Source of the DNA: Parabacteroides sp. TM07-1AC
Lineage (GTDB): Bacteria; Bacteroidota; Bacteroidia; Bacteroidales; Tannerellaceae
Direction: 5' to 3'
Length of the DNA: 64,000 nt
Assembly (NCBI RefSeq): GCF_003480915.1
Contig: NZ_QUKD01000008.1
Location: forward strand, 213,854-277,853
Position numbers and translations under genes: made by a program. Positions 25,728 through 38,000 of this stretch are shown here, one piece after another. The stretch's first letter is position 1; each line of letters opens with the position of its first letter. Below the pieces are notes generated by a model, which did not search any database, was not told the DNA's origin, and worked only from the letters and a program-made list of their open reading frames with translations.

Positions 25728-26174
25728 ATGTCTTTAAGTTTCCATCTAGTCAAACGTCCCGATATGAGTAAAGATGCTGCCAAAGGCGCTCAGCTCTATT
25801 ACGGACAAGTCAGGGCTTTGAAAAAAGTCAGTTTCCAAAAACTCTGTGAGATGATCGCCATGCGAAGCACTGCTTTTATCGGTGATGTCATGTTAGTTGT
25901 CGAAGGTCTTCTCTCCGTTATGCAGGAGCGACTCGAAGAGGGCGATATCATCCAGATGGGTCGCCTGGGTAACTTCCGCATGGTAGCCGGTAGTAAAGGG
26001 ACTGCCACAGAGGAAGAGTTCAACACCTCTCTTTTCAAAAACGCACGTATCGTATATGTTCCGGGTACTATGTTAAGCGACATTCGCAAGAATGCTACGT
26101 ACGAAGAAATCAAACCGTTATCCTCTGAAAAATCGTCTTCCACACCCGATGACGACAGACCGGTTATCGAATAG
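25728..26174 (+). CDS. HU-like DNA-binding protein of the DUF4248/murein hydrolase cassette
   Basis: A 148-residue protein from the ATG at 25728 (MSLSFHLVKRPD, typical start for this HU-like family; the ATG at 25635 lies in front of the likely transcript start). The HU fold covers about residues 20-120 (VSFQKLCEMIAMRST, IIQMGRLGNFRM), followed by a charged tail. Such proteins replace the Pro-tipped arm of HU by a shorter loop. It begins a short plus-strand operon inside a minus-strand polysaccharide locus, with the glucosaminidase 8 bases downstream. Confidence 0.85.
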   Translation: MSLSFHLVKRPDMSKDAAKGAQLYYGQVRALKKVSFQKLCEMIAMRSTAFIGDVMLVVEGLLSVMQERLEEGDIIQMGRLGNFRMVAGSKGTATEEEFNTSLFKNARIVYVPGTMLSDIRKNATYEEIKPLSSEKSSSTPDDDRPVIE

Positions 26175-26182
26175 GCTGCGAT

Positions 26183-26653
26183 ATGCATAAAAAAGAGTTT
26201 ATCCAAAAGTTCCTTCCGGCTGCCCAGGCAGCCGGGGAACATTACAAACTGAATCCGGTCGTTATCCTCGCCCAAGCTGCTATTGAAAGCGGTTGGGGAG
26301 AAAGTGCTCTTTGTAAAATCAATCATAATTTTTTCGGACTTACCGGATACGGTCAACCGTCACTTTACTGGAAAGGTGCTAAAACACCTAAGATTGAAGA
26401 TGGCGGAATCTCTCACCTGCAGTTTCGTATCTATGAATCGGATGAACAGAGTTTCTTCGATTTTGCCCGGTTGATCCGTACCGTTTATTCAACAGCCGCT
26501 TCTATCAGCTATCATCCGGAGGCTTATGCCAAAGAGATCGCTTACAGCCGCTACATCAGCGAAGTAAACGGCGACAACCGAGAAACTTATCGACAATTGC
26601 TCACATCAATCAGTCAATATATACAAAATACTATCCAACATGAAATATCTTGA
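26183..26653 (+). CDS. Glucosaminidase (GH73, FlgJ/endolysin-like)
   Basis: A 156-residue murein hydrolase domain: the catalytic Glu is in AAIESGWGESAL (about residue 33-44), followed by NFFGLTG and a YAKEIAYSRYI segment. These cut the glycan chain between GlcNAc and MurNAc. There is no signal peptide, so release would need a partner such as the holin-like protein encoded next, or lysis. The stop overlaps the next gene by 14 bases. This is a phage-lysis-like arrangement, but no other phage gene is nearby. Confidence 0.88.
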   Translation: MHKKEFIQKFLPAAQAAGEHYKLNPVVILAQAAIESGWGESALCKINHNFFGLTGYGQPSLYWKGAKTPKIEDGGISHLQFRIYESDEQSFFDFARLIRTVYSTAASISYHPEAYAKEIAYSRYISEVNGDNRETYRQLLTSISQYIQNTIQHEIS

Positions 26654-26847
26654 AGCCGTACTTAATTTTCTGACAACCATTGCCCGGATGCTTTTTCGGG
26701 GCAAAGGAAAACATAAACCTGGGTATCCTCCTGCTGACGATAGTGGCAATACTGGCGGTTCTCCAAAAGAATACGGAAGTAGCCCTGGCAGCCATCGGAG
26801 CGATACTCTCGATCTCCGGGAAATCTACCCGGCTCCCGAAAAAATAA
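26640..26847 (+). pseudogene. Holin-like small membrane protein with an apparent frameshift
   Basis: Starting at the ATG inside the glucosaminidase 3' end, the first 18 residues (KYLEAVLNFLTTIARMLF) read in one frame. The same frame then becomes polar and runs to 26909. Removing one base in the run near 26692-26700 (CTTTTTCGGGG) gives a continuous protein with two hydrophobic helices (LGILLLTIVAILAVL, VALAAIGAILSISG), a basic tail and stop at 26845. This is a holin-like layout of about 68 residues. Either a frameshift mutation, a sequencing error at the homopolymer, or programmed frameshifting would explain it. Confidence 0.5.
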
Positions 26848-26930
26848 TAGGAGGCGCACTCTTTGTATGTGCGACGGGAGGGTATCTGCTAAAATTACTG
26901 GAATCATAAACCTGATTCTGATAGATGAAG

Positions 26931-26977
26931 GTGCGTATTCTATGTTTTACTTACATAAAAACATAGAATGCACATCC
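26931..26977. terminator. Convergent terminator between the lysis-like cassette and ABC flippase
   Basis: A long stem (GTGCGTATTCTATGTTTT at 26931-26948 with its near-complement at 26957-26975) encloses an 8-base loop between convergent genes. It should end both transcripts. Confidence 0.7.
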
Positions 26978-26978
26978 T

Positions 26979-28706
26979 TTACTGCATATTACAAATATCT
27001 ATAATTTTGCGACATACAGACAACGATTCCGGACGATGGGAAATAACCAGAAGCGTAAGTCCGGGACATTCTTCCGACAACCGGACAATCGAATCGTTGA
27101 TAAGGTGCTCGGTCGCTTCATCCAGTGATGAAGTTGCTTCGTCAAACATCAATATCTCAGCTCTTTTATATAAAGCACGGGCTATCCCTAATCGCTGGCG
27201 CTGACCTCCGGACAACAGACTGCCACCTTCACCTACCGGTGTAAAAACACCTTCCGGAAGGGTTTCGACAAAACGATCCAAAGAAGCCAGACGTAACACC
27301 TGTTTTACCCTCTCCATACTGTTACATTCATCTGATCCCATGATAATATTATCGAGTAATGAGCCCTCCACCATAAATAATTGTTGAGACACATATCCGA
27401 TTTTACTTCGCCATGATGCCAGTTTATCGGTCGACAATTCGACTCCGTCTACATAAATTCCTCCGGAATCCGGCTTCAAAAAGCCCAATATCAGATGAAA
27501 CAATGTCGACTTACCACAACCGGATTCTCCCCGAAAACCGATAAAGTCTCCTTTCTGAATATTCAAAGAGTAGTTGTTGAATATTTGCTTCTCCTTACTA
27601 TACGAGAAACTGAGATTACGGATTGAGATCAATTCTTTAAATTCTATCGGATGTTGCTCAACAATACCTGTTGCTGACTCTCCTGATTCCATATCCGACA
27701 ACAGATTTATGGTAAATGAGTTTGCTTTCATTTGAAACATATATCCGGTACTTTTAATTATTCCCGGCAAAACACGATAAACAGCAATGGCAAACACACC
27801 AACAATCAGTCCTAAAGAGGGAAAATCAAACAACTGTGAAGCAACGATCAATACCACCACCGAACATATAACCGCTACTTCCAATACTTTCTGTAATGAA
27901 TTACTTAATAATAAATTACGTACTATACAATAATTTTGTTCTTCCAGTAAATCAGAAAATCGCTTCGTACTATTCGGAAACGTATTATTCATCTCCATAT
28001 CCGTAAATCCAATAAAAGTTTGTTGTAATAATTTCCCTTTTTGAGGAGCTAGCAAAAACAACCTTCTTCCATACTCTTTGATCCGTGAACGGGAGAAACG
28101 ATAATAAAGTAAAGTGATAGGAACAAATGTAAGTACCACTAACAAAAAAACATAAATATCGAATATTATCAATCCGATAAGAATAGAACCGGAAACAATA
28201 CATTCACATAACAATTGCGTATAAGAAACAAAATACCCTTTAATCAAATTGTCTGCAATACAATTTACCTGATTGACTAATCGATGACTATTATTTCGTT
28301 TAATATATAAATACCCTTTAGAATAATAAAAACGATATAACCGCATGGACAAATAACTGGATATCGAAAATAAGCGTTGATTTTGTTTATATTGCAATCG
28401 GGCAAGCAAACAGACACGTACTATAGAAAAAAGCAGAACCGACATACAAATAAAAAACATAAACGACCGGATACCATCAAAATTCCCCCAATCATATAAC
28501 GAAGCTAAATATTTATTTTCCAGTACAACCTCCTCATTGAGAACCAGCAGCAGTACAGGCAATAAAATTCCTGTTCCCAACAAATCCAAAACAGCCATCA
28601 CCAAAACAGAAACACCGACTCCCAACAAACGCAATCTGTACAAACGTGGTAACACTTTATATAAATGTCTTATTGCATTAGGTATCAATCTTATCATACC
28701 AATCAA
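26979..28706 (-). CDS. ABC transporter, fused permease-ATPase; probable glycan flippase
   Basis: A 575-residue half-transporter: six-helix membrane domain (about 20-320) and an ATPase domain with Walker A GESGCGKST (about 395), signature LLSGGQRQRLG, Walker B ILMFDEATSSLD and H-loop VISHRPE. This MsbA/PglK-like layout moves lipid-linked oligosaccharides across the inner membrane. No Wzx gene was found in the window, so it is the best candidate for that step here. It overlaps the polymerase stop by 4 bases. Confidence 0.85.
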   Translation of the reverse strand: MIGMIRLIPNAIRHLYKVLPRLYRLRLLGVGVSVLVMAVLDLLGTGILLPVLLLVLNEEVVLENKYLASLYDWGNFDGIRSFMFFICMSVLLFSIVRVCLLARLQYKQNQRLFSISSYLSMRLYRFYYSKGYLYIKRNNSHRLVNQVNCIADNLIKGYFVSYTQLLCECIVSGSILIGLIIFDIYVFLLVVLTFVPITLLYYRFSRSRIKEYGRRLFLLAPQKGKLLQQTFIGFTDMEMNNTFPNSTKRFSDLLEEQNYCIVRNLLLSNSLQKVLEVAVICSVVVLIVASQLFDFPSLGLIVGVFAIAVYRVLPGIIKSTGYMFQMKANSFTINLLSDMESGESATGIVEQHPIEFKELISIRNLSFSYSKEKQIFNNYSLNIQKGDFIGFRGESGCGKSTLFHLILGFLKPDSGGIYVDGVELSTDKLASWRSKIGYVSQQLFMVEGSLLDNIIMGSDECNSMERVKQVLRLASLDRFVETLPEGVFTPVGEGGSLLSGGQRQRLGIARALYKRAEILMFDEATSSLDEATEHLINDSIVRLSEECPGLTLLVISHRPESLSVCRKIIDICNMQ

Positions 28707-29872
28707 TTATTTAGTTTAACTACTCTATTACATTCAGATAATAACAACCATAAGAAAAAGCAGGAATAAGCTCCGGATGCTATTACATATCCTTCAAAAA
28801 TCATATGAAACAAACACAAGAACAAAAGAGCGCCCAACAAATATCCATTGATTCCACCTGACTCTTTTGTAAACAGCCGATAAACAATCTTGAAAACAGG
28901 AATCGCAAAAGACAAAAAACCAACGATTCCCATAGAGGACAATATAAACAGCCAACTACTTCCCGGCTCTATCGTTCCGGTAACCTGATCCCTTTGCCCC
29001 TCTACTATACTTGCAAAGCCAACTCCAAAAACCGGAAATGCCTTAAATTCATTCATTCGGTCTTCCCATAACGCATCTCTTGAACTCGTCAGGCTTCCTG
29101 ATTTTTCACCATTTTCCATTTTTTCTCGCAATCTTTCCGTATGAGACCACCAAAAACCCGAAGTCAAAACAGCCAGGCATAATATTGTAAAAACAACTTT
29201 CCCCAAGCGCATCACATGATGACGGTATATCCGACTGTAAAAAAAAGCAACAGCAACCATCGTACTCCCTAAGGCCGAACGAGAACCCGCTAATATCAAG
29301 ATCAGTAAGGAAACAACCATTATACCACTTTCCTTATAACGAGTTGATAATCTAGGAAATAAATAAAACCTGTATAAACTATATAGAAGAGAAATCCCAG
29401 CTAACAATCCAAGTAACATGGACTGACTGGCAAATCCTTCAAAACCACTCTTCCCATACACCAAATCCTTTTTAATTATCCAAGCTAAAAATGAAAAAAT
29501 TACAATACAGCGGATAAATGTCAAACTATGAATAAATAATAAACGCCTCCACATCGTTATTATTGGATTTACCAGAAAAGGGCCTATTGTTAAAGTCACT
29601 GACAAAAAGGCAATTACCCGAAATCCTACTTGGAAATAAGCCGGTATATCATTTACTACGATCGAAAGAAATATAGCAACCAAGAAAGGTAGCCAGGTAT
29701 ATGAAAGTATGAATCCTCCCCTAAAAACCATCCAAAGCAAAGATGCCACAAAAACACCATAATAAACCGGATCCGGTATAACAGGTAAATAAGGTACTAC
29801 TTTGGTAAAAGACATCAGAAGTAGGCAAAGTAACATAATACGAGCTATGCCGTCAACCGTACTTGTCCTCAT
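28703..29872 (-). CDS. wzy: O-antigen polymerase/ligase-type protein, Wzy-like
   Basis: A 389-residue protein with about ten transmembrane segments and a large periplasmic loop holding SSRDALWEDRMNEFKAF and FGVGFASIVEGQ, the pattern of the O-antigen ligase/polymerase superfamily. It sits between a glycosyltransferase and the flippase, with 4-base overlaps on both sides, which favours block polymerisation of the repeat unit. Wzy and WaaL cannot be separated by sequence alone, so the symbol is provisional. Confidence 0.8.
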   Translation of the reverse strand: MRTSTVDGIARIMLLCLLLMSFTKVVPYLPVIPDPVYYGVFVASLLWMVFRGGFILSYTWLPFLVAIFLSIVVNDIPAYFQVGFRVIAFLSVTLTIGPFLVNPIITMWRRLLFIHSLTFIRCIVIFSFLAWIIKKDLVYGKSGFEGFASQSMLLGLLAGISLLYSLYRFYLFPRLSTRYKESGIMVVSLLILILAGSRSALGSTMVAVAFFYSRIYRHHVMRLGKVVFTILCLAVLTSGFWWSHTERLREKMENGEKSGSLTSSRDALWEDRMNEFKAFPVFGVGFASIVEGQRDQVTGTIEPGSSWLFILSSMGIVGFLSFAIPVFKIVYRLFTKESGGINGYLLGALLFLCLFHMIFEGYVIASGAYSCFFLWLLLSECNRVVKLNN

Positions 29873-30942
29873 TTTGCAGAAATCATTCTAGTCTTCCGGT
29901 ATTTCCTGTAAAGAAACTCCAGACGATATCTGAGAAACAATAATACAGAACAACAAAAATCCATCAATAATGGAGATGTATAAAGTAATAACCCACGAAA
30001 CAGTCTTTGATGAACATCCTCTACCGGTGTTTTTTTTACCATCCTTTTTAGCAATAGCGACGAGAAATATTCAGTCTCCAAGATATTCAAACGTTCTTTT
30101 CGCGACAACTTCGTACCGGGACGATATAAAGTATACATAAAAACACGATAATCACGAACCTTCATTCTGCAGAGATAATCATCGGATACGGTTTTATTTA
30201 TTCCAAACTGATCAAAAAATGATTGAAAAATAGATTCTTTCTGCTTATGAGCTTCTAAAAATCGAGGTCGGTAAGAAGAAATAATAGTCATTACGTCTCT
30301 ACGCATATAATGATAAAAGGTATTCGGTAATACACTTACAGTTTTAATCACTTTCAATACCTCTAGATTAAAAGCAATGTCTTCAAAAGGAGCCTCTACC
30401 CGAAAATTCAAATTATTATCCCTGAGAAGTTGTGTCCGATATATTTTATTCCAGGCATAATTGAATAAATGTAATTGCGATAGTTCCACAAACAGAGAAT
30501 AAAAATTCATCGAGTCCCGCTCTGTATATTCCTGACTAATCTTTTCATAAGAAACATAACCATCTTTCGTATATTCCACAGCAACACTACAAATAACAAT
30601 ATCCGAACCCTCTCGTAGTGCCACTTTATACATAGACGAAAACATATCTGCTTCTATCCAATCATCCGCATCTACAAATGCAATATATTCTCCTGTAGCC
30701 TGTTTCATTCCAGCATTTCGGGAGGCACTTAAATGGGCGTTTACCTGATGAATAACCCGGATACGTGGATCTTCCGCAGCATATTGATCAGCAATCTTTC
30801 CGCTATCATCCGTCGATCCATCATCTACAATAATTATCTCGATTTCTTTTAAATCCTGATTGACAATACTGTCCAGGCATGCCACCAAATAACCACCTGC
30901 ATTATAAACTGGAACAACAATTGAAATCAAAGGCTTTTGCAT
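29869..30942 (-). CDS. Glycosyltransferase family 2
   Basis: A 357-residue GT-A enzyme with SIVVPVYNAGGYLVACLDSI, VDDGSTDDSGKIAD, SASRNAGMKQATGEYIAFVDADDW (shown by AFVDADDW, the DXD motif) and a variable helical C-terminal half. It follows the WecA-like gene by 11 bases and should add the second sugar to the undecaprenyl-linked first sugar. Specificity unknown. Confidence 0.87.
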   Translation of the reverse strand: MQKPLISIVVPVYNAGGYLVACLDSIVNQDLKEIEIIIVDDGSTDDSGKIADQYAAEDPRIRVIHQVNAHLSASRNAGMKQATGEYIAFVDADDWIEADMFSSMYKVALREGSDIVICSVAVEYTKDGYVSYEKISQEYTERDSMNFYSLFVELSQLHLFNYAWNKIYRTQLLRDNNLNFRVEAPFEDIAFNLEVLKVIKTVSVLPNTFYHYMRRDVMTIISSYRPRFLEAHKQKESIFQSFFDQFGINKTVSDDYLCRMKVRDYRVFMYTLYRPGTKLSRKERLNILETEYFSSLLLKRMVKKTPVEDVHQRLFRGLLLYTSPLLMDFCCSVLLFLRYRLEFLYRKYRKTRMISAK

Positions 30943-30953
30943 CTTTTTTCTAT

Positions 30954-32135
30954 TTACTTTTTCAATCCGGACATCGATACTTTATGAGCTATTTTTCTTT
31001 GCCCTATTTTAATTCCTAACAAGTAATTCATCAATATACCAAACAGCATGTTGACAACTACCACTATATTAAAATTCACATATTCTACAAGCATCAAATT
31101 AAATAGCAGCATGATCAGCGTATATCCAAGCAACAAACCTGTTGCCTGTAAATGTGTAAAACCGGCATCCAGGCATTTATGATGAATATGGTTTCTGTCG
31201 GCCAAAAAGACAGGAACACGTTGATAAAACCGGACAATCATCACACGTAACGCATCAAAAACCGGAATAAACAACAAGGAAAACGGAATAATCATATCCT
31301 CTACATGATATCCGGACTCAGGAATATACATAGCATACTTAATAGCAAAAAATGCTAGTAAATATCCTAAAGACAAAGAGCCGGAATCACCCATAAATAT
31401 TTTTGTTCCATGTGAGACCGAACCTAATGTATTATAAAACAAAAAAGGTAACACACAGCCCACAATGGAAAAAGCCAGCATACAATAAACCCATTCTGAT
31501 TTTAGAAAGAAAAGTATACCGAACGTTATGAAAGAAATCAAGCTCCCTCCTGCCGCCAGACCGTCAATCCCATCCATTAAATTTATGGCATTCGTTATAT
31601 ATACAACCAATACGATACTAAAAGGAACTGCTATCAATGCCGGTAATTCATAAACACCGAATAATCCATACATGTTATTCAGATATAAGCCGGAGAGAGG
31701 AAATAAAGAAGCTACCAGAAATTGTGCCATAAATTTTTTCCGATAACGAACTCCTATTAAATCATCCTTTACTCCTACCAGATATAAAAATAAAGCTCCG
31801 GTTAATAAAAATAATAGCTCCAACAATGTATACCCTGTCAATGCCGAATTAAAAGGAAAATTCATCATGAATCGAACGGCTGTTGTAAATGACAGGGATA
31901 TACATATTGCAGGAACAAATACAAAGCCTCCTAAACGAGGAACTGCTTGTGTATGACTTTTACGTGCATTCGGATCATCATACAAACGTTTTCGTTTGGA
32001 AATGACTAATACACGAGGCAGAACAAATGCAGAAAAGAATAATGATATTAAAAAACAAAGAACAATTAGAAATTCTGCTTTTTCTTTTTCCCCCAAGGCA
32101 GAGGCTAAAAAGCCTGTAATAGAATCTGTTGCCAT
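30954..32135 (-). CDS. WecA/MraY-type undecaprenyl-phosphate sugar-phosphate transferase
   Basis: About 393 residues from the ATG at 32135 (MATDSITGF), which is preferred over the ATG ten codons earlier because the extension is polar and not part of the family. It has about eleven helices with ITNAINLMDGIDGLAAG, FMGDSGSLSLGY and RNHIHHK, the catalytic Asp and His-box signatures of the family. It starts glycan synthesis by moving a sugar phosphate (GlcNAc-1-P in WecA) to the lipid carrier. First gene of the operon; expression should depend on the invertible segment upstream. Confidence 0.88.
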   Translation of the reverse strand: MATDSITGFLASALGEKEKAEFLIVLCFLISLFFSAFVLPRVLVISKRKRLYDDPNARKSHTQAVPRLGGFVFVPAICISLSFTTAVRFMMNFPFNSALTGYTLLELLFLLTGALFLYLVGVKDDLIGVRYRKKFMAQFLVASLFPLSGLYLNNMYGLFGVYELPALIAVPFSIVLVVYITNAINLMDGIDGLAAGGSLISFITFGILFFLKSEWVYCMLAFSIVGCVLPFLFYNTLGSVSHGTKIFMGDSGSLSLGYLLAFFAIKYAMYIPESGYHVEDMIIPFSLLFIPVFDALRVMIVRFYQRVPVFLADRNHIHHKCLDAGFTHLQATGLLLGYTLIMLLFNLMLVEYVNFNIVVVVNMLFGILMNYLLGIKIGQRKIAHKVSMSGLKK

Positions 32136-32213
32136 GTATTTAAATTTAGTTTTTCTGCATAACAAAGTTCGTCAGTCCCATCATTTCGGGCGACATACTA
32201 GTGCGTTTCGTTT

Positions 32214-32240
32214 TGACCCTTATTTACTAAATAAGGGTCA
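32214..32240. repeat. Left inverted repeat (recombination site)
   Basis: Perfect 13-bp arms TGACCCTTATTTA / TAAATAAGGGTCA around a single C. The palindromic site would bind recombinase subunits on both arms; the central base breaks symmetry and sets orientation. Confidence 0.8.
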
Positions 32241-32646
32241 TTGGGTTTAAACCACTATATATCTGATATATACAATACTAAAAAGAAACTTCAGGAAGAG
32301 AAATTTCACCGATAATAGGTTTCTTTCTTATTTTGTTATGATTTATTTTCTTCAAATAGAGGGAAGAGAAATCCGAAATGTTAGGTAGTAGTATTTATTT
32401 AGTAAAATAATATTATAAACCCGGCGATTCTTTAAATAAACGTCAATGAATTTATTTCTTATCATTTTGTAGTTCTGCTAAGTTCGGTTAAAGGATTTTT
32501 AGCGGCAGCCTTTGAATTGTATAATCATCTCATTTCTAGCATTTTTAGCAGTATCTTTTCGCAAATTCCAGTATCATTAATTTAATATTAACCTTTTTTA
32601 TGACACAAAATATCTTCCGGCTAAAGTTTTATCAATTTAAAAAATT

Positions 32647-32654
32647 TACCTTTG
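32647..32654 (+). promoter_or_regulatory. Promoter -7 box inside the invertible segment, facing right
   Basis: TACCTTTG is an exact Bacteroidetes -7 box, with a weak T-rich -33 region about 17-20 bases upstream (AGTTTTATC). In this orientation it directs RNA toward the recombinase 3' end, away from the operon. After inversion the box would occupy about 32320-32327 on the minus strand, giving a leader of roughly 180 bases before the WecA-like start. Confidence 0.65.
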
Positions 32655-32733
32655 CGCTGTCATAGATTTTCAAGCCTTTTGGTAGTATAGGGTATTACTG
32701 ATTATGATTTTTCACCTACCATTTTTAAGGCAA

Positions 32734-32760
32734 TGACCCTTATTTAGTAAATAAGCGTCA
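32734..32760. repeat. Right inverted repeat (recombination site)
   Basis: TGACCCTTATTTA, central G, then TAAATAAGCGTCA: one base (32756) departs from the perfect palindrome. The last three bases are the stop codon of the recombinase gene on the minus strand, so inversion would leave the recombinase coding sequence intact. Confidence 0.8.
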
Positions 32761-33702
32761 ATTTTTAATCGATTGTTTATTTACCCATTTTTCTACAAAC
32801 CCTATAATTTTCATATTCACCCTATCAATTATCGATTGGTCCAGTTCTTTTAGATAAAAACGAGTCGTTTCTTCAGAAGTATGTCCCAGTGCCTGACTGA
32901 TCACCGATATCGGTGCTGAATTTTCTTTAGCACTCATTGCCCAGGAATGGCGGGCAACATACGATGTCAGCTTTACCGGACAACTTAACTTATTCCCTAT
33001 CCTCTCCAAACGACGGTTATAAGTCCTTAGAGCCACCTTATATGTTTCATAAGAGGCATCTAATGATTTTAATATAGGAAATAATGCGTTCGAATTAGCA
33101 TCAGCATACTTTTCCAAAAGGCGACGCATACCCGAAGTAATCTTTACGCGGATTTCCGTTTTAGTCTTAACACGAGAGTATACCAACTCGTTACCATGTA
33201 TATTTTTATAAGTCAGGTGGGCAAGATCGACGAAAGCCATCCCACAAGCCATAAAACTAAAAAGAAACAGATCGCGTGCAAAATCCAGCGATTTGTTTGC
33301 TTTCAAATCCATTTGTGTCATTTCCTTTATTACATCAGCTCCTACCGAACGTTTATAAGACTGAACCGGCCGCAGGCGAAGCTTTTGAAAAGGATTTTCA
33401 CCAGGAGCAATTAAGTTTTCAGAAAGTGCACAATTATAAACGGCGCGAAGTATGCTGGTGTAATTACTTACTGAATTACGGCTCAGGTTCAATGACTCCA
33501 GATGGTCGACAAAATCATTTACCAACTGGGTATTCACACGTTTGAAATCCAATTTGCGTTGACCGATAAATAATGCCAACTGATTTCGGGTTGCTTTGTA
33601 TAAACTGGCTGTTCCTTTTTTACCGGAGGCATATTTATCTCTTTCAAGAGAATCCATATAACCCAATACTCCTTTGTCTGCAATCTTTCCTGTTGTTTCC
33701 AT
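32758..33702 (-). CDS. Tyrosine site-specific recombinase, probable promoter invertase
   Basis: A 314-residue phage-integrase-type protein: N-terminal SAM-like/core-binding domain (about 10-105) and catalytic domain with a Lys-bearing KTKTEIRVKIT hairpin, SYVARHSWA (Arg-His), LGHTSEETTRFYL (His and the nucleophilic Tyr). The usual first catalytic Arg before GM(A/S)FVD is Cys here (MACGMAFVD). Its stop codon lies inside the right inverted repeat, so it is placed to flip the neighbouring segment. Such linked recombinases control capsule promoters in Bacteroides. A promoter box lies at 33731-33738. Confidence 0.88.
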   Translation of the reverse strand: METTGKIADKGVLGYMDSLERDKYASGKKGTASLYKATRNQLALFIGQRKLDFKRVNTQLVNDFVDHLESLNLSRNSVSNYTSILRAVYNCALSENLIAPGENPFQKLRLRPVQSYKRSVGADVIKEMTQMDLKANKSLDFARDLFLFSFMACGMAFVDLAHLTYKNIHGNELVYSRVKTKTEIRVKITSGMRRLLEKYADANSNALFPILKSLDASYETYKVALRTYNRRLERIGNKLSCPVKLTSYVARHSWAMSAKENSAPISVISQALGHTSEETTRFYLKELDQSIIDRVNMKIIGFVEKWVNKQSIKN

Positions 33703-33730
33703 AACAATGTTTTTATAAGATAAATAAGAA

Positions 33731-33760
33731 CAAAAATAAGAGATTTATAGTTTACCCAAA
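33731..33760 (-). promoter_or_regulatory. Promoter of the recombinase gene
   Basis: On the minus strand: TTTG (33757-33760), 18 bases, TATTTTTG (33731-33738), close to the Bacteroidetes consensus. It lies outside the invertible segment, so recombinase expression should not depend on orientation. Confidence 0.55.
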
Positions 33761-33793
33761 AGCAAAAACCATTGATATACATAAGAAATGGAA

Positions 33794-33823
33794 AAAGGAG
33801 GATACCTCCCGGCATCCTCCTTT
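33794..33823 (-). terminator. Terminator of dps
   Basis: Perfect stem AAAGGAGGAT / ATCCTCCTTT with a 10-base loop, followed on the minus strand by a T-run. It separates dps from the recombinase gene downstream. Confidence 0.85.
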
Positions 33824-33866
33824 CTAACGCAACGAATGAATTATTTATATTTACACTTACTTCTCA

Positions 33867-34355
33867 TTACTTCTTGCAATCGCAAGTGGAATAAGCTACT
33901 AACATCCAAACCAATTTTTCCTGTTCTTTCAGATAATCGCTCATCAGCGCTACTGTAGCTTCATCACCTGCTTCCGACGCAAGAGAAAGGAGTTTACGCT
34001 CTTCGGCGATGAACTGTCCGTAAGTATTCAGGATATTTTCCAGAGCTTCATCACCACAGGAAACGCCTGATACTTCTTTAACTCTTGCCACTTTCAGGTA
34101 TTCACTGAATTTATTTACCGGTACGCCACCCAACATCAGGATACGTTCTGCCAGTTCGTCTACCTTTTCGGCTGCATCGTCGTACATTTCTTCAAATTTA
34201 CTGTGAAGCACGAAGAATCCATGTCCTTTTATATTCCAGTGGAATCCGCGAAGGTTTGTATAAAATACCTGATAGTCGGCTAATAACTGCTGTAATGCTT
34301 CTACTACTTTGTTTGCTGCTGATGCATCTAAATGCAAATAATCTAATGTCTTCAT
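33867..34355 (-). CDS. dps: Dps-family ferritin-like DNA-protection protein
   Basis: A 162-residue four-helix protein with the Dps ferroxidase signature (FHWNIKGHGFFVLH then EMYDDAAEKVDELAERI, seen as FHWNIKG and EKVDELAERI). Dps oxidises and stores iron with peroxide and protects DNA, and in Bacteroides is under OxyR control; an oxyR gene lies 6.3 kb away in this window. The C-terminus carries a small Cys motif (STCDCKK). Promoter at 34400-34431 and terminator at 33794-33823 make it a single-gene unit. Confidence 0.92.
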   Translation of the reverse strand: MKTLDYLHLDASAANKVVEALQQLLADYQVFYTNLRGFHWNIKGHGFFVLHSKFEEMYDDAAEKVDELAERILMLGGVPVNKFSEYLKVARVKEVSGVSCGDEALENILNTYGQFIAEERKLLSLASEAGDEATVALMSDYLKEQEKLVWMLVAYSTCDCKK

Positions 34356-34399
34356 AATTCTTATTTTTTATATGTTATACTTTTTTATTTCTTGTACTG

Positions 34400-34431
34400 C
34401 AAAGATACAGCATATATAAACACCTGTCAAA
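34400..34431 (-). promoter_or_regulatory. Consensus promoter of dps
   Basis: Minus strand: TTTG (34428-34431), 20 bases, TATCTTTG (34400-34407). Both boxes and the spacing match the Bacteroidetes primary sigma consensus. Transcription would start near 34393, about 38 bases before the ATG. Confidence 0.75.
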
Positions 34432-34737
34432 CAGATAATTGCTATACATACATAGATAAAATCTATTAAACAAACGGCAGCCATTCATATCAAGAGCATA
34501 TCATCCATAAAAAATGACTGACAGCTTTAAAATGCTATTATTAAAAAAAACTAAACGACACAATAATTCCGGATATACTTTTTTTTCGATAAGACAACAC
34601 CTCCTGATACACCACATTAATTGAAGTTCTTAGACTGAGCTCATCTATCTACATTTCAATTATTTATCTTCAGATGTCAACACATGCTAAATCTTACAGA
34701 AAAAAACTCATAATCTGCGTTAATTGACGTAAGAGTA

Positions 34738-34769
34738 ATTGTAAACAAAAAAAGTTTAAACTACTTTTG
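34738..34769 (+). promoter_or_regulatory. Promoter upstream of the T9SS surface protein gene
   Basis: ATTG (34738-34741), 20 bases, TACTTTTG (34762-34769). The RNA would start near 34776 and have a leader of about 235 bases before the ATG at 35013. The rest of the 657-base gap toward dps shows nothing else clear. Confidence 0.55.
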
Positions 34770-34801
34770 ACATTTATTGCTATACCACTAATTTTTTTAA
34801 C

Positions 34802-34873
34802 ATGTTACGAAAGGACTTTATTTTATTGCTGTTACTTTATTTTATATATCGAAATCCGACAGAAGGTGACTGA
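34802..34873 (+). CDS. Possible 23-residue hydrophobic leader peptide
   Basis: A short frame from ATG at 34802 gives a basic head (MLRKDF), a hydrophobic core (ILLLLLYFIY) and a polar tail, stop at 34871-34873. It lies 26 bases after the predicted transcript start and ahead of two palindromes. It could be a leader peptide, a small membrane protein or chance. No ribosome site is visible, which is not unusual in this phylum. Confidence 0.25.
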   Translation: MLRKDFILLLLLYFIYRNPTEGD

Positions 34874-34950
34874 CAAAGCGAACTGAAAGTTCCGCGTGCA
34901 CGGAATAAAAGAAAGGTAGTTACATAAATTTTTATTTTTATAGAATTAAT

Positions 34951-34992
34951 ATAAGTAAAGCGCCGGCGCTTTACTTATCTGCTTATAAGCAG
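34951..34992. promoter_or_regulatory. Two abutting perfect palindromes in the leader
   Basis: A 28-bp perfect palindrome (half ATAAGTAAAGCGCC, 34951-34978) is followed with no gap by a 14-bp perfect palindrome (CTGCTTATAAGCAG, 34979-34992). The ATG follows 20 bases later with AGGAG at 35001-35005. In RNA these form two adjacent hairpins just before the ribosome site; in DNA they could be protein-binding operators. Confidence 0.75.
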
Positions 34993-35012
34993 GCTGAGAA
35001 AGGAGAGAAAAC

Positions 35013-38000
35013 ATGAAAAAAATTTTATTCGTACTATTTCAAATAGTATTATGTATCACAGCTCCTGCTGTGGCACAAACAAGCACGAATGTAAATTCAG
35101 TTGCAGAGTTACAAACGATGGTCAGCACAGCATCCACAGATTCCAAATTCACATTGACGGATGCCTTCGTGACTGATTTCAACAGTCAGGCTTCGGCTAT
35201 AAACTTAACGATAAATTCATCAGCAAAAATCACAGTAGACGGAGCTAATTTAACACTGAAAGCAGCAGCGAATCAACGACATTTCACCATCGGTGGATCG
35301 GGCAATGGAACATTGACTATCCAGAATATGACGCTCACGGGATTAGTAAAAGATTCAGAGTTAACAAACGGAGAATACCCCAAAAACTGGAATCCGGATG
35401 CTTCTACTATTGGCGGAGGAATAACCGGAGGCTTCTCCGGCGAGTTACGAGTTATCGGTTGTTTTTTAACAAAAATGCGACCTGCATCAAGTAGTATAAG
35501 TGTTACAGCCAAAAAGGTAACAATAAAAGAATCCTCTTTCATTTCCATCGGAAAGATAAATATGGACGATGGCGGGTCTGTCATTTATACAGGTAATGTT
35601 TCTTATGAGATAGAAAATTGCACATTTGCCTATAATTTTGCCAGATCAATAGATGCATACGGTGCTGGAATCATTTATATAACCAAGAATCTGGCTGAGA
35701 TTTTCTCAATCAAAAACAGCCGGTTGTATAAAAATACTACACTGACAGCAAAAACAGACGGAGCAGCAGGTGGAGGAGTAATCTCCTTGAAAGATGCTTA
35801 TCCCAATACATTCATTATCGATAATTGTGAATTTACCGAAAACGAAGTAGACTCTTATAACGGTGGTTATACGGGAAATACAGCAGATGGCGGAGCTGTT
35901 TATTTCTATGCACATAATGGTGGAGGAAGCAGCAAGATCGAAGTCTTGAACAGTACCTTTATGAATAATACTGCATTCGACGAAGGAGGCGCTATTGCTT
36001 TTGTCGGTCAGTATCTGACCAATGTACTTGTCAGGAATAATACCTTTTATGGAAATACGGCAAGAGGCGATCAACGTAAAGGGACATATACAGCGGATGG
36101 TTTTGACGGAGGAGGAGCCATAGAAGTCGATACAAAAGCCGTAGTTACATTCGAAAATAACACAATTGTCAAAAATACTGCACTAAAAGGTACAGCTACT
36201 TCCGGAAATGCCGGAGGAGGTATTTCCGTATACGGCAGTGGAAAGGCTACTTTAAGAAACAACATTATCAGTGGAAATGAAAGTACGTATAGTTATTCCG
36301 GTGGATATCCTGATATATATCCAGCCATCACATCTACTTCATGGACATCTAAAACAGGTACAAATATCATCGGAGAACCCCTGATTAATATTTTCGGATT
36401 AACCGATCCGAAGCCAATCGCCTATGGCAGTAAAAAAGCTGGAGATCCGAGATGGAACGGAACAAATGAAAATTACTACGGCGTTATCAAAACAATACCG
36501 ATACTGCCGAATGACAAGAGCCTGGCAGACATACTGCCGAGCGGTCTTGCCGATGATACGGTCGATAACTCTACTTTAAGCGATCTGTTAGGCAAAGACC
36601 AGAATGACAACACGCGTATCATCGCTGATGACGGTTTTTCCGATTCCGGTGCCGTTGAAATCCTTTGGGTACGTTTTAACGCAAACGGTGGAAACTGGGA
36701 AAATCTAGGAGAAAACAATTACGCCGGTACTGACTACTACAACCTGGAAGATGGTAAAACCACCTATTATTATAAAGTAACCAATCACAAGGGAAAAGTA
36801 GACAGTCCAACTACTGCTGCCGATAAACTTGTTCATCCCGAAGGAAAACAATTTCTAAAATGGGTAACAGACGATGCAGAAGAGAAAGACTGGGTAAGTT
36901 CGGATGCCGTCACTGAAAATAAAAAATATAAGGCTCTATGGAAAGAGGATGCTTTGGAGGTAACCTATCATTCTAATTTCGATCCGGATAAAACATATAA
37001 ACAAGCTTACGACGGTGGGGAAGTTACTACTGCCACCTATCCTGCTACCAATTTGCCCAACCGTCCAAATTACATTTTCGTAAAATGGACAACCCATGCC
37101 GATGGCAGCGGTACAGTTTACCTGCCGGGAGCTATGTTTACAATCACTGAAAATATCGACCTCTACGCCCAATGGGAACCAAACTCAACACTGAAACTAC
37201 AATGGTCTGTCTCTAAAACAACTGCCGACCTGTATGAATTCAATGATGTGGAAAACAATTCCACGACATCCGTCATGGTGGGTACACCTGTGTATGTGCA
37301 AATTCGTCCGACAGGTCTCGAACATATCGATTTCGACACCTGGACCATCGAATACTCTGCTACACCCGTTGACTATCACTATCCAATAGACGAAAGCATT
37401 GCTAAAACGGTACGTTATAATTTCAATAAGGGAGAGGCCCACACGCTTGAAGGTATTTATCACTATAATGTAACCAAACTGATCCTCTACAAGAGTGGAA
37501 CGGAAGTCGCTACGTATATCTACCGTAATGCATCCTGCACACATACAGTAGTCATTCAGGATAAACCGGTCGTGATAGATCCTAAGCTACAATGGTCCGT
37601 TTCCACCGTTACCAGTGAACAACCCTATTTCAAGGACGTAAAGGATCAGACCACCACTTCCGTTAATTACGGGACTCCCGTCTTCGTACAGATACGTCCG
37701 ATAAAACATGAAGGCATCGTCTTTGAACGCTGGGATATAGAATATTCCGTAACTCCGGCAGAACATTATTACGGAATGACACCCAAACTGAAGACCGAAC
37801 GACACCATTTCAATAACCGGGAGGCTCACACTGAAAAGGGAACCTATATGTATGTTGTCACAAAACTGACACTATATGATATGTACGGCAACCAGGTCGT
37901 TAAAACTTACGACTATAACAATTCTCCGTACCGGCATACTATCGTGATCAGTGACAGCGAAGGACCTGGTCCCGGACCGGGAACAGGGGGAGGATTACAA

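Follow-up and report, generated by a model that had tools for sequence, protein, structure and literature searches.

A probable invertible promoter with a linked tyrosine recombinase before a WecA-type glycan operon in Parabacteroides

Inversion of capsule-operon promoters is well described in Bacteroidales, and some of these promoters have a tyrosine recombinase gene linked to them. A first reading of the present locus from its sequence alone (hereafter the sequence-only reading) had started from this background, of which Mpi and Tsr19 of Bacteroides fragilis are examples (PMC4747536). Tsr19 (BF2766) is a tyrosine recombinase whose gene adjoins an invertible promoter, mostly OFF, that serves an operon for extracellular polysaccharide; deletion of the recombinase gene stops inversion, and the enzyme also inverts a distant promoter (PMC4747536). 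In each of the three B. fragilis genomes described, the Tsr19-linked promoter was OFF, and its repeats are duplicated at one or both ends (PMC3090145). In P. distasonis, an integrase, palindromic repeats and an invertible promoter region of 314-345 bp precede 10 of 12 CPS operons (PMC12118408), and an integrase is reported at each CPS cluster (PMC9409006). The consensus of the Bacteroides -7 promoter element is TAnnTTTG (PMC4747536), and surface-glycan switching is linked to how sensitive gut Bacteroidales are to phages (PMC12118408).

The locus analysed here lies in a 64-kb stretch of DNA, called the window throughout. Its closest known counterpart is B. fragilis Tsr19 (BF2766) with IVp-I before the large-capsule EPS operon, a likeness of arrangement. 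Both have a linked tyrosine recombinase immediately upstream, an invertible promoter (predicted as such in the window), a polysaccharide operon and the OFF orientation, which for IVp-I prevails in culture and in the three genome sequences (PMC4747536; PMC3090145). As in the Tsr19 type, a tyrosine recombinase gene adjoins inverted repeats placed around a Bacteroidales consensus promoter. The operons differ, that of Tsr19 having WbaP-, Wza- and Wzc-like genes (PMC3090145) and that of the window being of the order WecA-GT-Wzy-ABC. The Mpi capsule promoters of B. fragilis are invertible and precede polysaccharide operons (PMC4747536), but Mpi, which serves many loci, belongs to the serine recombinases, whereas the enzyme linked to the window locus is a tyrosine recombinase. 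The CPS loci of P. distasonis, which belongs to the same genus, and of B. thetaiotaomicron share with the window an integrase and a promoter region between palindromic repeats (PMC12118408). Those repeats, however, are of the GTTAC/GCTAC class (GCTACTYRGNRAGTAGC; CCGTTACCTA...), and in P. distasonis the operons behind them start with a NusG gene (PMC12118408). The sites in the window read CTTATT-N5-AATAAG, and the window operon starts with wecA. The Glycos_transf_4 type of this first gene, in place of a NusG-like UpxY, also sets the locus apart from UpxY/UpxZ-type capsule loci. No description of CTTATT-N5-AATAAG sites was found in the open-licence literature, which is no proof of novelty.

We propose, with a probability of about 0.88, that the locus is a phase-variation switch inverted by its linked recombinase. 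It would most likely be a switch of known kind within a large Parabacteroides family, typical of that family except for a near-symmetric spacer.

Sites, promoter and genes of the window locus

The features of the locus are collected in Table 1. Two near-palindromes of 27 bp were found in inverted orientation, 547 bp end to end, with the coordinates and the sequence that the sequence-only reading had given; the TGA stop of the recombinase gene falls inside the right one, as had likewise been claimed. The left site is a perfect palindrome except for its central base and the right site has one mismatched pair more. The inverted match is longer than the palindromes, reaching 39 bp at 90% identity (32213-32251 and 32723-32761), because an ATTG just inside both sites is common to them. 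The view that a single central base sets the asymmetry therefore holds inside the left 27-mer and not for the whole 39-bp repeat with its shared ATTG. When CTTATT-N5-AATAAG was searched with at most one mismatch, the 64-kb window gave two matches, which are the two sites, both exact. By chance 0.34 matches are expected in the window; two matches, at any position, are reached in 5 of 100 shuffles. Judged by the rarity of the motif in the window together with its conservation in relatives, the arrangement of the sites exceeds chance.

Table 1. Features of the locus, in window coordinates
Feature	Position	Strand	Remarks
ABC transporter, PglK/MsbA-like	26979..28706	-	below curated cut-offs of both
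Wzy_C polymerase/ligase-type membrane protein	28703..29872	-	no NCBIfam match
Family 2 glycosyltransferase (GT2)	29869..30942	-	
wecA-like sugar-phosphate transferase (Glycos_transf_4)	30954..32135	-	first operon gene
Leader motif ATGGGACTGACGAACTTTGTTAT	32159..32181	-	between operon-side site and wecA
Operon-side recombination site (putative)	32214..32240	.	27-bp palindrome TGACCCTTATT-TACTA-AATAAGGGTCA
Predicted invertible segment, 547 bp	32214..32760	.	OFF orientation in present sequence
Conserved internal block TATTTTACTAAATAAA	32394..32409	.	includes 'partial third core'; in 8 of 9 aligned cassettes
Half-site-like TTGACGTTTATTT	32434..32446	-	11/13 identical to recombination arm TTGACCCTTATTT
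Imperfect dyad CTGCTAA...TTAGCGGCAG	32475..32508	.	conserved except in L058, 5' of promoter; by eye
Conserved sequence 5' of box (CTAAAGTTTTATC...)	32613..32646	+	probable -33 region
Bacteroidales -7 promoter box TACCTTTG	32647..32654	+	points toward recombinase (OFF)
Recombinase-side recombination site (putative)	32734..32760	.	one arm mismatch; recombinase TGA stop inside
Tyrosine recombinase, 314 aa	32758..33702	-	Phage_int_SAM_5 and Phage_integrase (Pfam, above cut-off)
TATTTTTG box	33731..33738	-	28 nt 5' of recombinase start; likely its own promoter
Terminator-like hairpin	33792..33825	-	between upstream ferritin-like (Dps-type) gene and recombinase

The segment contains one exact TAnnTTTG box, the consensus box by which the promoter is called, and this box is aimed away from the WecA-like first gene, in agreement with the sequence-only reading. 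After inversion in silico it lies at 32327-32320 (minus strand) and faces the operon, as had been expected (about 32320-32327).

The reading frame of the recombinase is open. In an alignment of 14 family members, R143, K179, R251, H274 and Y283 are invariant, and from its place in the alignment Y283 is presumably the nucleophile. At residue 156, where comparison with a XerA-type structure places the first catalytic arginine, the protein has alanine. R143 was considered as its substitute, after the example of the CTnDOT integrase, and was rejected: the other arginine used by that integrase lies further downstream, whereas R143 lies upstream (PMC8138268). The best match of the recombinase was P0001 (99% identity, 45 member sequences), known from a contig of 3,739 bases, and the organism-named entries among the 120 matches listed of 5,696 were from Parabacteroides. 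A search of a genome collection by two peptide patterns gave 23 relatives, all 23 in Parabacteroides records. In viral contigs, the search with the site pattern gave zero matches and the recombinase search only one relative, at 27% identity. The window is Bacteroidales DNA, most likely from Parabacteroides.

The operon was annotated as WecA-GT-Wzy-ABC, and both this annotation and the relatives support its earlier assignment as a polysaccharide operon with a WecA-like first gene. Its ABC transporter is probably a lipid-linked glycan flippase. The wecA ATG (32135) lies only 78 nt from the operon-side inverted match (32213), and beyond the operon the next two annotated genes (HU-like, glucosaminidase) are on the opposite strand.

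In the mechanism that we propose, the recombinase (33702-32758) would pair the two CTTATT-N5-AATAAG sites and invert the segment of about 0.5 kb between them. In the OFF state the promoter would fire toward the 3' end of the recombinase gene, away from the operon. In the ON state the same promoter would transcribe wecA-GT2-wzy-ABC through a leader of about 180 nt, which would include the hairpin of the site as well as the conserved leader motif. The products of these genes would synthesise a surface glycan linked to undecaprenyl and flip it. That the window locus inverts, that its own recombinase acts, that the ON state transcribes the operon, and which glycan is made are all points that we infer.

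Related cassettes and the recombinase family

Nine loci were aligned from the recombinase stop to the operon start, namely the window locus and, in four genomes, eight relatives: L054 and L068 (G070), L055, L069, L075 and L078 (P. gordonii), L056 (P. goldsteinii) and L058 (P. bouchesdurhonensis). All nine have both sites, the promoter box (one base short in L058) with the sequence upstream of it, and the leader motif; all nine are in the same orientation. In these close cassettes the recombinase stop overlaps a site or lies close to it. In longer versions of six of the eight relatives (L001, L002, L003, L004, L006 and L007), the alignment region is followed by genes identical to those of the window at 58-65% (wecA), 45-55% (wzy) and 61-74% (ABC), about 45-75% overall; both G070 loci are also followed by wecA, wzy and ABC homologs. 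The identity of GT2 is about 41-42% in L002 and L003 and 76% in one G070 locus; between wecA and wzy, L001 has no GT2 match and L004 has a GT4-type gene in place of GT2. By these comparisons, the glycan cassette is repeated in Parabacteroides, with four copies in P. gordonii, and it adds a repeated WecA-type cassette to the local switches of the Tsr19 sort.

Beyond the close cassettes, a search with the recombinase alignment (E <= 1e-25, fragments included) found between 2 and 18 matches in each of eight genomes; at E <= 1e-70, the window recombinase was matched in 14 of the 123 genomes of the taxonomic family. The eight-genome search comprised 81 matches, of which 50 were fetched, the rest being mostly weaker or at contig ends, with some duplicates of other loci. 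Of 72 loci, three scored under 120 bits and were dropped, which left 69 distinct recombinase loci. In these the arms alone were searched (TTATT-N5-AATAA, spacer free). A locus was taken as testable when one site fell between 80 nt ahead of the recombinase stop and 60 nt past it, with a second site over 200 nt beyond the first. The two spacers were identical in inverted order in 39 of the 39 testable loci, and mononucleotide shuffles gave 0.008 arm-only sites per region. Of the other 30 loci, one (L030) had all its sites remote from the stop, 22 were without sites and seven were on contigs too short for a decision.

The 39 testable loci have 13 different spacers. A search for inverted repeats, which favours matched spacers and for which the arm-only search is the control, gave 14 spacers among 40 loci; with TATAG/CTATA and TATAA/TTATA being reverse complements, these 40 loci have 12 spacers without regard to orientation, and a spacer is common to 93 of the 780 locus pairs. 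By these searches, the arms are common, with a spacer that is matched within the locus and varied between loci, which makes for a clean comparative set: the same arms, many spacers, and a match within every testable locus. The spacer of the window locus, TACTA, differs from its reverse complement at one of five positions and the other 13 spacers do so at three or five, so that the earlier remark on its unusual near-symmetry was well founded. Same-spacer tandem duplications of a site, 23-33 nt apart and at one or both ends, were seen in L066, L063, L071, L072 and L042, and the duplicated repeats of the Tsr19 system are alike in this respect (PMC3090145).

Orientation and rival explanations

Direct comparison of two distant family members gave one natural inversion. 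L066 (P. distasonis NM39_I3, the same locus as L009) and its ortholog L074 (G041) are 95.0% identical in the upstream flank (2444 bases) and 96.7% in the downstream flank (938 bases), and between these flanks about 510 bp align in reverse at 82%. Opposite segments between near-identical flanks indicate that the family inverts, in members whose recombinases are only 43-44% identical to that of the window. Together with the comparison of the family, this case supports the assignment of the locus to invertible promoters with a linked tyrosine recombinase, as made in the sequence-only reading.

Among 41 loci with repeats, 31 were read as OFF, one as ON (L066) and nine were unreadable, by a bracket that places the box 75-135 nt from the segment end and that was set after the first positions had been seen. 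Outside this bracket, boxes face the operon in L062 and L063, and they occur in both directions in L036, L020, L083 and L060; L074 is among the nine unreadable loci, its box pointing OFF but lying outside the bracket. All 12 readable loci of P. gordonii were OFF (L015, L055, L069, L075, L078, L080, L081, L083-L086 and L091). The segments of the OFF loci L070, L076 and L079 are identical and those of two other pairs about 95% alike. OFF is the typical state in assemblies, and the OFF state read in the window is thus the usual one and no peculiarity of one read. Since an assembly gives the majority state, the census speaks for ON as the minority state and not for frozen loci. Within 160 nt of the recombinase, a contig end was present on the downstream side in 7 of 69 loci and on the upstream side in 1 of 69; this excess is compatible with mixed orientations and is given little weight, as the ends are not exactly at the sites.

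Loss of inversion, which would leave the promoter as no more than a source of antisense RNA toward the recombinase gene, would account for a box toward the recombinase in 31 of the 32 loci that could be read among the 41, including 12 of 12 in P. gordonii, and the single orientation of the nine aligned cassettes is also expected of a frozen element. B. fragilis IVp-I, however, is likewise mostly OFF and yet inverts (PMC4747536). Spacers are matched in 39 of 39 testable loci, a match that drift would break, the recombinase frame is open with catalytic-type residues invariant in the 14 aligned members, and the family has its natural inversion in L066 and L074. We consider a frozen relic very improbable on these grounds. 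Somewhat less improbable, though still unlikely, is inversion of the segment mainly by the recombinase of another locus, a trans-acting paralog beside which the linked enzyme would be dispensable. In its favour, the relatives carry 2 to 18 matches to the family per genome, fragments included; some loci of one genome share a spacer (TATGG in L055, L069 and L078 of P. gordonii), and B. fragilis Tsr19 acts also on a distant promoter (PMC4747536). Such an enzyme would leave unexplained why the site overlaps the recombinase stop or lies close to it in the close cassettes, and why each recombinase of the 39 testable loci adjoins its own matched site pair. The adjoining tyrosine recombinase would also suit attachment sites of a small integrating element. 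The two sites are inverted, however, and not direct, no reading frame of at least 90 aa lies between them, the promoter box is conserved and the wecA-type operon is on the same side in all eight close relatives, which leaves this last explanation with hardly any credit.

A phase-variation switch inverted by the linked recombinase is therefore the reading that we prefer, and within it the 5-bp spacer may have a role of its own. We suggest, as a doubtful but conceivable addition, that it is a locus address: across the genus, the many switches of one genome would be kept apart by a separate spacer for each site pair, which the inversion reaction itself would keep matched. We further suggest that the near-symmetric TACTA would lead to leaky behaviour, with a sometimes permanent loss of the segment. 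Lox sites with symmetric spacers provide the analogy for other tyrosine recombinases. By this analogy, we predict that a TACTA site could recombine in parallel alignment and so delete the segment; if the address reading is true, one base pair of TACTA would decide between inversion and deletion. The comparative set opens two questions, whether spacer identity is a barrier between paralogous switches and why nearly all loci are OFF in assemblies.

Leader and elements inside the segment

The leader motif at 32159-32181 could be the start of a short frame, MGLTNFVMQKN. Searched as ATGGGACTGACNANCNTYGTTAT, it gave 11 matches in 7 of the 123 family genomes and the reversed control gave zero. Eight matches are at close cassettes and three elsewhere (L103/L118, L108/L119 and L109/L120): L120 has it before a Polysacc_synt_2 operon, with no recombination site of this kind within 700 nt upstream, L119 before a 665-aa frame, similar by eye, and L118 at a contig end. 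ATGGGACTGACNANCNTYGTTAT may belong to a leader common to these operons or to a short frame, MGLT..., which spans 8-35 codons across 12 distinct sequences. A general Bacteroidales element was rejected, the motif being matched in 1 of 198 genomes of the order, the centre G001 itself. No RNA family reached its gathering score in 26000-36000.

In the OFF arrangement, the operon-side site together with the leader folds better than 200 of 200 shuffles (z -3.4), largely because of the palindrome. A terminator scan found one candidate at this site, on the plus strand, among four found against 1.3 expected. A terminator of the OFF transcript at the recombinase-side site was rejected: its fold has -8.5 kcal/mol (z -1.6), 14 of 200 shuffles are equal to it, and the scan shows none there.

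Within the segment, the sequence-only reading had noted a partial third core at 32395-32406. The 12-mer is present; when the segment was shuffled by mononucleotides, it or its complement turned up in 6 of 2000 shuffles. It is not, however, a decayed third copy of the site of this locus, and was rejected as such: the surrounding block TATTTTACTAAATAAA is found in the window cassette and in seven relatives (L058 being without it), and these seven carry TATGG, TACGG or TATAG in their terminal sites. With the block kept beside other spacers, its likeness to TACTA here is not a matter of descent from the site of this locus. The half-site-like stretch at 32434-32446 is conserved in the aligned cassettes except L058 and is possibly an accessory binding site, although alone it is weak, 11 of 500 mononucleotide shuffles matching equally.

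Distant members of the family (L013, L015, L017, L043, L085-L087, L089, L091 and others) have segments of about 400 bp and precede frames that are secreted- or lipoprotein-like by eye, not wecA-like. In the close cassettes, TTGACRTTTRTTT stands beside the block TATTTTACTAAATAAA (32394-32446 in the window) and is kept in eight of the nine that were aligned; the stretch is possibly an accessory site for the recombinase or for a regulator.
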